Origin: Natrinema amylolyticum
GTDB lineage: Archaea > Halobacteriota > Halobacteria > Halobacteriales > Natrialbaceae
Direction of reading: 5' to 3'
Assembly (NCBI RefSeq): GCF_020515625.1
Contig: NZ_JAIWPJ010000001.1
Span: forward strand, 186,001-250,000
DNA: 64,000 bases
A program made the translations under genes and the position numbers. The notes beneath the pieces were generated by a model. That model saw only the letters and a list, made by a program, of their open reading frames with translations, was not told the origin of the DNA and searched no databases. Position 1 is the stretch's first letter. Every line of letters begins with the position of its first letter. Positions 15,071 through 18,971 of the stretch are shown here, piece after piece.

Positions 15071-16021
15071 CTACTCGAGCGTCGGGACGGGAACCGAATC
15101 GAGCACCTCGTCGACGATCGCCGTCTTCGAAGCCCCGTCGACCGACGCGTCTGGGGTGAGAACGAGCCGATGGGCCAGCACGGGACCGGCCACGCGTTTG
15201 ACGTCGTCGGGCGTCACGTAGTCGCGGCCGGCGACGACGGCGCGGGCCCGCGTCGCCTCGAGCAGGCGCTGGGTGCCCCGCGGCGAGACCCCGACGTCGA
15301 TCTGGCTTCGAGTGCGCGTCCCGCGGGCGATCGCGGCGATATAGGACACGAGATCGTCGTCGACCCGGACCGATTCGGGGACTTCCCGGAGCGCGCGGAC
15401 GCGGTCGCCGTCCAGCACCGGGTCGATGCTCGGACTCCGTTCGGTGCGGCCGAGTCGCCGCTGTAACAGCTCTCGTTCGCCGTCCTCGTCGGGATAGCCG
15501 ATCGACTGTTTCACCAAGAAGCGATCGACTTGAGCCTCCGGCAGCGGGAAGGTGCCGGCCTGCTCGACGGGGTTCTGCGTCGCGATCACGAAAAACGGCT
15601 GCGGCAACTGATGCGTGTCGCCGTCGACGGTGACCTGGCCTTCCGCCATCGCCTCGAGCAGCGCAGCCTGGGTCTTCGGCGGCGCGCGGTTGATCTCGTC
15701 CGCGAGGACGACGTTCGCGAAGATCGGTCCCTCGGTGAAATCGAAGGTGCCCACCGACTCGTCGAACACGTGAGTTCCGGTCACGTCGGCCGGCAGCAGG
15801 TCCGGCGTGAACTGAATCCGGGAGAACGACAGCCCCAGCGCCGACGCCAGACTGTTCGCGGTCAGCGTCTTTCCGGTTCCGGGCACGTCCTCTAAGAGCA
15901 CGTGACCGCGCGAGAGGACACCGAGCAGGACGGTCTCGAGGAACTCCCGGTCCGCGATGACGGTCTCGCCGACGGCGTCCAAGACGGCGTCACACTCCGC
16001 GCGGGCGTCGGTAATATCCAT
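15071..16021 (-). CDS. MoxR family AAA+ ATPase
   Basis: A 316-residue AAA+ ATPase with Walker A VPGTGKT (residues 46-52), Walker B VVLADEINRAPPKTQ, sensor 1 VIATQNPVE and the MoxR-type RFLVKQSIGYP insertion region. The C-terminal lid carries GVSPRGTQRLLEATRARA. MoxR ATPases act as chaperones with von Willebrand-type partners such as the DUF58 protein encoded convergently at 12956-14491. Unlike the usual arrangement, the ATPase is on the opposite strand with its own promoter, so it can be expressed independently of its partners. Confidence 0.93.
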   Translation of the reverse strand: MDITDARAECDAVLDAVGETVIADREFLETVLLGVLSRGHVLLEDVPGTGKTLTANSLASALGLSFSRIQFTPDLLPADVTGTHVFDESVGTFDFTEGPIFANVVLADEINRAPPKTQAALLEAMAEGQVTVDGDTHQLPQPFFVIATQNPVEQAGTFPLPEAQVDRFLVKQSIGYPDEDGERELLQRRLGRTERSPSIDPVLDGDRVRALREVPESVRVDDDLVSYIAAIARGTRTRSQIDVGVSPRGTQRLLEATRARAVVAGRDYVTPDDVKRVAGPVLAHRLVLTPDASVDGASKTAIVDEVLDSVPVPTLE

Positions 16022-16242: not shown

Positions 16243-16259
16243 TATAGTAGCCACTGAAA
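16243..16259 (+). repeat. Left 17-bp terminal inverted repeat
   Basis: Exact reverse complement of 16310-16326. Read outwards on the plus strand it ends a chance frame with Y-S-S-H-stop, just as the right arm does for the RIC gene. Confidence 0.7.
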
Positions 16260-16309
16260 GTCAGGGCACATCTGATCGTACGACAGCGTTGTGATCAGTA
16301 TGTAAATCG

Positions 16310-16326
16310 TTTCAGTGGCTACTATA
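16310..16326 (-). repeat. Right 17-bp terminal inverted repeat, containing the RIC stop codon
   Basis: Exact reverse complement of 16243-16259. The last five codons of the RIC gene (Y-S-S-H-stop) are read from this arm. Confidence 0.7.
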
Positions 16327-17040
16327 CTCCGCGACGACGGCTTCGAGACGCTCCTGCGCCTCGGGGAACATGACGTTGTTCTCCTTGTGGATGTACAGAT
16401 GCATGTCCTCCTCGAGGAGCTGCAGCCGGTCGAGCATGCTGCGATAGCTCGGACACGCATCCTCGGGGATCGCGTAGTCGTCGGTCAGCGAACGGAGCCG
16501 CTCGAGGTGGGCCGCGGCCGCGTCGTGTTCGTCCTCGAGGTGACCGATCGCCTTGCGGATCCGCGCCTCCTCGTCGGGCGTCAGCGACGGCTCGCCGTCG
16601 AGCCGTTCGAGTTCGGGGAAGACGTTCTCCTCCTCGTCCTCGATGTGGTGGGTGGCCTCGTCGGCGAGGTCGAGAAACGTCGATTCGACCTCGCGGAGTT
16701 CCGGATGGGCGTCGCCGTGGACGCGGACTACCTTTCGAACGGTTCGCTCGAGCGACGGCAACTCGTCGCGGAGGTAGTCGTGGTGGGTTTCGACGATGTC
16801 GTCAACGAGCGCCGATATCGAGTCCCGGTCGCTCGTTTCGCCGGCGTCTCCCGATCGGGCCTCGCGCAGTTTCTCGCGGACCGTCGCAACCTCGAGGTCG
16901 GCGTCGGCACAGGCCCGCGCGAGCGAGGCGTCGCCGCCACAGCAGTAGTCGATCCCGACGGACTCGAACACCGACGCGAATTCGGGATTGTCTCTGACGA
17001 GCGCACCGAGTCGCCGCTCCGGATCGATTTCGACGGTCAT
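16312..17040 (-). CDS. RIC family iron-sulfur cluster repair di-iron protein
   Basis: A 242-residue protein with an N-terminal DUF542/ScdA domain carrying the paired cysteines C33-C34 (YCCGGD) and a C-terminal hemerythrin-like four-helix domain. Likely iron ligands are in THHDYL, THHIEDEEENVFPE, LEDEHDAAAAH and MHLYIHKENNVMFPE. RIC proteins (YtfE, ScdA, DnrN) help restore iron-sulfur clusters after nitrosative or oxidative damage. The start at 17040 was chosen because the upstream extension is Arg-rich and lacks domain sequence. The last four residues, YSSH, and the stop codon come from a MITE-like inverted repeat, so the C-terminus has been rewritten by the insertion. Confidence 0.88.
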   Translation of the reverse strand: MTVEIDPERRLGALVRDNPEFASVFESVGIDYCCGGDASLARACADADLEVATVREKLREARSGDAGETSDRDSISALVDDIVETHHDYLRDELPSLERTVRKVVRVHGDAHPELREVESTFLDLADEATHHIEDEEENVFPELERLDGEPSLTPDEEARIRKAIGHLEDEHDAAAAHLERLRSLTDDYAIPEDACPSYRSMLDRLQLLEEDMHLYIHKENNVMFPEAQERLEAVVAEYSSH

Positions 17041-17288: not shown

Positions 17289-18713
17289 CTACTCGTAGAG
17301 GTGGGCCCACGGTCGCTCGCGCTCGAGCGCCGCGCTGGCCGTGAGGACGTCGTCGTCCCCGAACCGGGAGCCGACGAGTTGGAGGCCGACGGGATGGCCC
17401 CCGTCTGTCAGTCCGGCGGGCGCCGAGGCGACCGGGTGACTCGTCCAGTTGAACGGCCACGTGAGCGGCCACTCCCACGCGTCGGACTCGAGGTCCTCGC
17501 GCAGCCCGACGTCCGCTCGCGACAGCGTCGGCGTCACGAGGACGTCGTACTCGGCGAGGACGTCCTGCACGGCGTCGAAGACGCCAGTTCGAACGACGCC
17601 CGAGCGGGCGAGGTCTTCGGGCCCGTGCTGTTCGGCGATGTGGAGCATCGCGAGCAGGCTGTCCGACACCTCCTCGGGACGGTCCCGGAGGTCGATCCCG
17701 TGCTCCTCGTCGACGAGCGCCGCGGTCTCGAGGATCGACGTCATGTACGTCGCCATCACCGCCTCCTGCAGCTCGGCCATCGAGTAGCCGTGGCCGATCT
17801 CGATCTCGTCGACGGTCGCGCCGGCGTCCGCGAACGCGCCGACGGCGTCCTCGACGACCGCTCGCACCTCGTCGGTGATCGGAAAGACGTCGAGATCGGG
17901 GCTGTACGCGATCCGGTAGTCGTCGATCGACCGCTCGACGGCCCCGCGGTAGTCGATCTCCACGGGGACGCTCGAGGGATCGGCCGAGTGGGGGCCACTC
18001 GTGATCTCGAGCATGAGCGCGGCGTCCTCAACGGTTCGGGTCATCGGTCCCTTAGTGACGTGCTGGGTCTTTCGGCCGAAGGCGCTCGGCCGACCGTCGT
18101 CGGGCACCAACCCGAAGGTCGGTTTGAAGCCGTAAACCCCGCAGGCGGCCGCCGGAATCCGGAGCGAGCCGCCGGCGTCGCTGCCCGTTGCGAGCGGCGT
18201 CATTCCGGCGGCGAGTGCGGCCGCGGAGCCGCCGGAGGAGCCGCCGGCGTTGAGTGACGTATCGATCGGCGATGCCGTCGGTCCGACGAGTTCGTTGTCC
18301 GTCGTCCCCTTGTGCCCGAATTCGGGCGTATTGGTCTTCCCGATCACGACGGCGCCCGCGTCCTCGAGGCGCTCGACGATCGCCGATGTTTCGTCGGCGA
18401 CGTTGTCCGCGAACAGCGCCGAGCCGTACGTGTGCCGCACCCCTTCCTTGAGCGCGCCGAGGTCCTTCAGTGCCAGCGGGACGCCGTGGAGCGGACCGAT
18501 ATCGTCGCCGTCCCGAAGTGCCCGGTCGGCCTCGGCGGCAGCCTCGCGGGCCGCCTCGTCGCAGACCGTCACGAAGGCGTTGATTTCGTCGTCGTCGCGG
18601 TCGATTCGCTCGAGGTGTGCCTCGAGGGCTTCGGTCGCGGTCGCGTCCCCGGTCCGAATCGCTGCCGCGAGTTCCGTCGCGGACAGCGCCGTGAGTTCCG
18701 TCTCCTCGGACAT
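17289..18713 (-). CDS. Amidase (amidase signature family)
   Basis: A 474-residue amidase-signature hydrolase with the Ser-cisSer-Lys triad visible: K83 (LALKDLG), S159 in the GGSSGGS glycine-serine motif and nucleophile S183 in SDAGGSLR. GFKPTFGLVP follows, as in the family. Such enzymes hydrolyse amides; the sequence lacks clear GatA-specific features and no gatB or gatC is adjacent, so a catabolic amidase is more likely than the tRNA amidotransferase subunit. The start at 18713 (MSEETELTAL) gives the usual family length. Substrate unknown. Confidence 0.88.
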   Translation of the reverse strand: MSEETELTALSATELAAAIRTGDATATEALEAHLERIDRDDDEINAFVTVCDEAAREAAAEADRALRDGDDIGPLHGVPLALKDLGALKEGVRHTYGSALFADNVADETSAIVERLEDAGAVVIGKTNTPEFGHKGTTDNELVGPTASPIDTSLNAGGSSGGSAAALAAGMTPLATGSDAGGSLRIPAAACGVYGFKPTFGLVPDDGRPSAFGRKTQHVTKGPMTRTVEDAALMLEITSGPHSADPSSVPVEIDYRGAVERSIDDYRIAYSPDLDVFPITDEVRAVVEDAVGAFADAGATVDEIEIGHGYSMAELQEAVMATYMTSILETAALVDEEHGIDLRDRPEEVSDSLLAMLHIAEQHGPEDLARSGVVRTGVFDAVQDVLAEYDVLVTPTLSRADVGLREDLESDAWEWPLTWPFNWTSHPVASAPAGLTDGGHPVGLQLVGSRFGDDDVLTASAALERERPWAHLYE

Positions 18714-18971
18714 ACCAGTAGCACCCGGCCGAAGTGTGATATAAGTTGTCGCGGTTCTCACGGCTCGCCGCCGCTTCTCCGAGACGAGGCGGCCGACGAG
18801 CGAGTCCGTCGTTCGGGAGAAGTGGGGATACCGCGGAAATTATTGATCACTGTGACGGATCGGTCACCGTCTCATCGGATAATACGACGCATACGTTCCT
18901 TTGAACGTTCTGTCGGCGGATCACAGAACGCTCGTGCGCAACAAACCCCGGTTCGGTTACGAATGCGGAAT

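Follow-up and report, generated by a model that had tools for sequence, protein, structure and literature searches.

A probable IS630-type MITE at the stop codon of a haloarchaeal iron-sulfur repair gene, and the recurrent insertion of its family into stop codons

Among haloarchaea, MITEs have already been described from Halobacterium and Haloquadratum (PMC10969869, PMC3119063), and enterobacteria are known to have repeat elements that take the place of a stop codon (PMC2759123). The element described here, located at the end of a RIC gene of Natrinema amylolyticum, most closely resembles MITEs of the IS630 family (Tc1/mariner group), with which it shares the TA duplication, a preference for CTAG, the terminal TATAGTA..., inverted repeats, a length of 80 bp, many dispersed copies and the lack of a transposase. 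The location of the target TA within CTAG is a known preference of IS630 (Tenzen and Ohtsubo, 1991, as cited in PMC2170065). Unlike the IS630-family MITEs, the RIC element is a near-perfect palindrome throughout, and the search for an autonomous partner whose ends are identical gave none. SMR-A and SMR-B of Haloquadratum walsbyi (PMC3119063), with which our element is compared by description only, are similar in size (80–110 bp), in their prominent inverted repeats, in being present in tens of copies and in having no known transposase. However, they reportedly insert into other mobile elements and create no target duplication, whereas the family described here duplicates TA and inserts at gene ends and between genes. 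A parallel in the consequence of insertion is offered by the enterobacterial RU-1 elements at gene ends, where an amidase gene has lost its normal stop to a MITE-like repeat that provides the new C-terminus, although RU-1 belongs to a different family with different hosts and adds a longer peptide (PMC2759123). IS870 likewise uses a CTAG target for making a stop codon, but there the target completes the open reading frame of the element itself, whereas our element displaces the stop of the host gene (Fournier et al., 1993, as cited in PMC6471742). A literature text search for the repeat sequence returned nothing relevant. We regard the element as representing an apparently new family of a known kind, with recurrent insertion into stop codons as its notable property.

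The feature at positions 16243–16326 of the window, by which we mean the whole 64,000-nucleotide stretch of DNA that was analysed, is confirmed as real. An initial annotation had reported perfect 17-bp inverted arms and an inner CTGATC/GATCAG pair, and both are present in the sequence: the perfectly complementary arms occupy 16243–16259 and 16310–16326, and between them lie CTGATC (16272–16277) and GATCAG (16293–16298). A search of the entire window, with two mismatches allowed, found this arm pair and one imperfect site only, and either strand folds far better than its shuffles (z about −6 to −7, with none of 200 shuffles as good). The annotation had described an 84-bp element with 17-bp repeats; the arms are as it described them, but the outermost TA on each side is target duplication, and the element proper is therefore 80 bp long with 15-bp repeats (Table 1).

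Table 1. Features of the RIC locus, in window coordinates.
Feature	Position	Strand	Remarks
RIC / YtfE / ScdA-type di-iron Fe-S cluster repair protein	16312..17040	-	242 aa including the 4-residue tail; TIGR03652, ScdA_N + Hemerythrin
RIC codons TAT AGT AGC CAC TGA (Y-S-S-H-stop)	16312..16326	-	target TA + element arm; predicted translation
G of the former RIC stop codon TAG, now beyond the element	16242	-	from empty-site comparison
MITE proper	16245..16324	.	80 bp; no transposase coding capacity; bounds from empty sites L062/L064 and 100 aligned copies
TA target-site duplication, left copy	16243..16244	.	single TA in L062/L064 empty sites
TA target-site duplication, right copy	16325..16326	.	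T-A of the former RIC stop codon TAG, minus strand
Terminal inverted repeat TAGTAGCCACTGAAA	16245..16259	+	15 bp, perfect in the RIC copy
Terminal inverted repeat TAGTAGCCACTGAAA, read on the minus strand	16310..16324	-	15 bp, perfect in the RIC copy
Inner imperfect palindrome CTGATC...GATCAG	16272..16298	.	two GATC sites
Neighbour ORF	15071..16021	-	316 aa; AAA/MoxR-like by inspection of the translation alone; syntenic in empty-site relative L062
Amidase gene	17289..18761	-	own stop (CTC TAC GAG TAG) uninterrupted

The RIC protein matches TIGR03652 in a profile search (E=1e-62, residues 11–227 of 242) and also ScdA_N and Hemerythrin, and its predicted reading frame ends Y-S-S-H-TGA inside the element arm, as had been noted initially. 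What the gene looked like before the insertion can be read from two relatives in which the site is empty. In genome G022 (locus L062) the empty site is GTCGCGGAGTAG|TCGACCGG, and a second empty site is found in Haloterrigena salina JCM 13891 (L064), next to a full-length RIC that is 81% identical. Both element-free relatives read GTC GCG GAG TAG|TCGACCG and their RIC ends VVAE-TAG, which places the native stop precisely where the element went in; the minus strand of the window reads GCG GAG TA[80 bp]TA G TCGACC, the one TA of the empty sites now being two. By this comparison the element has split the native stop TAG into TA[element]TA-G and has lengthened RIC by the four residues Y-S-S-H, past the end of the RIC profile match. 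The RIC of L062, a close relative, lacks about 100 N-terminal residues and is likely a decaying gene, but as the RIC of L064 is full length, the ancestral TAG stop does not depend on a decayed gene. Upstream of what is left of RIC in L062, at a distance of about 630 bp, there is a further copy of the same MITE.

The initial annotation had called the feature a mobile, MITE-like element and suggested searching haloarchaeal genomes for its end, and many dispersed copies were indeed found. The 15-bp end occurs 36 times (with at most one mismatch) in the window's own genome versus 0 times for a reversed control, and a DNA search of the same genome returned 26 matches, corresponding to 21 places of element length, a single half copy and some re-matches on the opposite strand, which arise because the element is palindromic. 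All 29 of the genus genomes searched contain matches, as do 57 plasmid records, 54 of them with a full-length copy, and the matches listed are all haloarchaeal; a phage collection searched with the element gave no real match. The family thus consists of short elements in multiple dispersed copies with shared ends, terminal inverted repeats and no transposase gene, and with the empty sites in two relatives and the TA target duplications it has these properties of a MITE. Its anatomy is uniform in a sample of 100 distinct, non-redundant, aligned copies from several genomes: 93 are 80 bp long, 89 have TA on both sides, and 66 have the target C-TA-G, with C in 85% and G in 84% of the flanking positions. 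The target at the RIC locus, GTAG (i.e. G-TA-G), is off this consensus. Judged from the best-scoring listed places, which are not an unbiased census, the copies in the window's own genome are old (median identity 83%) and those in genome G009 recent (98.8%; 18 sampled copies). In genome G025, head-to-tail copies almost without spacer are seen at C48:137695-137865, C49:27970-28144 and C5:50920-51091.

The position of the RIC copy is not exceptional within the family. Gene ends were predicted with a simple gene caller that took its codon usage from the window, and CTAG sites in the same flanks served as background. By this measure 21 of the 100 copies lie at the 3′-end of a gene with the TA in codon positions 1–2 of the terminal frame, as opposed to 3 in the other frames, and none of the 72 background CTAG sites falls in a stop codon. 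A second, independent classifier gave 18 of 100 copies versus 2 of 83 background sites; the excess was examined by Fisher and binomial tests. When the flanks are rejoined, the codon is mostly TAG, once TAA, and in a few cases TAC or TAT, and these last cases may be truncations. The predicted tails at the stop-codon copies are YSSH, YSSN or YSSY and stand on unrelated proteins. Of 20 such proteins examined, 14 match Pfam families (E≤0.001), and in these the domains stop short of the tail; they include diphthamide synthase, enoyl-CoA hydratase, 5-formyltetrahydrofolate cyclo-ligase, an M28 peptidase and an amidase. The amidase, found in genome G011 (L151, Amidase E=7e-86), is a homologue of the amidase gene of the window and has the same element in its stop codon; it is thus another stop-codon insertion, with its uninterrupted counterpart in the window. 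As the background is small and drawn from the same flanks, and as insertions within genes are selected against, the excess shows the survivors and not necessarily a preference of the transposase. Recurrent landing in stop codons is apparently tolerated, and we infer that survival bias is the cause of the excess.

The reading of the initial annotation, that the RIC frame would run on without the element and that the insertion therefore truncated a longer protein, agrees with the location of the present stop within the element. We reject it, as in both insertion-free RICs the TAG stop coincides with the insertion point, and the RICs of more distant haloarchaea (L065, L066) are some residues shorter at their C-terminal end rather than longer. 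The insertion did set the C-terminus in the sense that the present stop and tail come from the arm, but it did so by interrupting a native stop and adding four residues. Alternatively, the element could be a conserved REP/BIME-like hairpin that terminates transcription or stabilises mRNA and that functional selection, not transposition, has put at gene ends. The hairpin is very stable, copies are in excess at stop codons, and the inner stem is kept with paired changes: in a comparison of 41 distinct copies the inner helix is retained in 92% of cells, and paired changes are seen at 6 of 18 pairs, with 9 pairs changed on both sides versus 3.0 expected. These paired changes may reflect a need for the hairpin, but palindromes also acquire them by template switching or gene conversion, and transposition itself requires matching outer arms. 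A single copy conserved at the same place in distant species had been named at the outset as the sign of such a hairpin, whereas the element is multicopy, and its site in the relatives is cleanly empty with the TA duplicated upon insertion. Moreover, a U-rich tail is absent, Rfam gives no match, and either of the two arms faces the gene, both orientations being seen. Copies between divergent genes (18) are as frequent as those between convergent genes (17), which makes a general terminator role unlikely. The convergent or downstream bias and the lack of mobility by duplication that characterise REP/BIME sequences and terminators are not what we observe, and we consider this explanation very improbable.

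The remaining alternative concerns the enzyme that moved the element. On the basis of the TA duplication, the CTAG preference and the end sequences, the family is probably an IS630 (Tc1/mariner)-type MITE. Of the 29 genus genomes, 18 contain IS630 elements with a DDE_3 transposase (E about 1e-39). These elements measure about 1,059 bp with the flanking TAs included, have a split ORF with DDE_3, and begin with TATAGTARNCRTTAGAA, where the MITE has TATAGTAGCCACTGAAA. They share the C-TA-G target (C/G outside the TA in 18 of 24), but unlike the MITE they encode a transposase, and none of the 23 copies examined was called in a stop codon. The ends resemble each other closely over about the outer 11 bases and partly beyond: when IS630 ends were compared with MITE arms, none of 20,000 shuffles was as good in two of four comparisons, and 1 and 3 were in the others, while the best subterminal agreement, which pairs the left end of the MITE (GTCATTGCAC) with the right end of IS630 (RTAATTGCTC), was reached by 105 of 20,000 shuffles. 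The full-length parent transposon that the initial annotation had proposed to look for was not recovered. The near-exact end matches listed for the high-copy genomes G015 and G009 include no autonomous element with identical ends, and a pattern search of 391 class genomes found none that combines identical ends with IS630-like subterminal or interior sequence. Neither the IS630 loci checked in genus members and other genomes that carry the MITE nor the plasmid IS630 relatives (38–69% identity) have identical ends. A 761-bp end pair in G015 proved to be one MITE and an unrelated single end around a gene that by inspection is flavin/pyridoxamine-oxidase-like, and the unpaired-looking ends fetched from G009 are decayed 80-bp copies, except for two without a recognisable partner. 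The window's own genome and several MITE-rich ones (G015, G025, G010) have no DDE_3/IS630 match, and MITE copy number does not follow IS630 number across the genus genomes. It is for the lack of such matches that we can only infer an IS630 transposase as the mobiliser. Together with the missing parent and the recent burst of near-identical copies in G009 (L127–L144), which has one DDE_3/IS630 match only (E=4e-10), these absences could be taken to mean that a different transposase, likewise duplicating TA, moved the MITE. We consider this unlikely, as both the target and the end sequence agree with those of IS630 elements of the same genus, and the absence can be explained by loss of the transposase after a burst or by its supply from a plasmid outside the assembly. 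On another record (L101, NZ_CP101459.1, about 2001–2100), an IS630-like end starts inside a MITE copy with the variant arm TAGTAGTCGTTGAAA, and here an IS630 element has apparently inserted into the MITE.

We thus favor, with considerable confidence, the explanation that the RIC element is a copy of a haloarchaeal IS630-type MITE, moved in trans into the TA of the stop codon of RIC. An IS630-family transposase, no longer recognisable in the window's own genome, would have inserted the MITE at this TA (GAG-TA|G) and duplicated it. The native TAG is thereby cut off from the frame, and translation would enter the arm and read TAT AGT AGC CAC TGA, which gives the Y-S-S-H tail; the effect on RIC is presumably near-neutral. 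Such insertions probably recur because the preferred target CTAG holds a stop codon in one frame and because the arm supplies its own in-frame stop after four codons, such that an insertion into a stop codon would do little harm and survive. This would be a simple route for a mobile element to reset protein C-termini without breaking genes, in which the choice of target and the sequence of the arm together make stop codons a low-cost landing site. We point out that YSSH/YSSN tails could serve as a searchable signature of past insertions and warrant caution in the annotation of haloarchaeal proteins.

In the stop-codon frame, the arms of the MITE and of the genus IS630 elements both reach a stop at codon five (YSxx*), TGA in the former and TAG in the latter. 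One could speculate that stop codons are a safe harbour for these elements, where the CTAG target and the fifth-codon stop limit the cost to four residues, and that the stop in the arm is maybe kept by selection, so that haloarchaeal proteins of unrelated kinds come to share a Y-S-S-H/N tail. We regard this as doubtful; that the IS630 arms share the fifth-codon stop is an intriguing coincidence, compatible with selection for insertions that do no harm but no proof of it. Plasmid pHME505 of Haloferax mediterranei carries a related palindromic element of 80 bp (L102, about 2001–2088), which has the same subterminal GTCATTGCAC but a different arm, TAGTAGCGTTTGCAA, without an early in-frame stop. 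The GATC sites of the inner palindrome (16274–16277 and 16293–16296 in the RIC copy) are nearly invariant over the copies. An orphan methylase that is widespread in haloarchaea has GATC as its motif (PMC6471742), so transposition of the MITE could be regulated by methylation at these sites.
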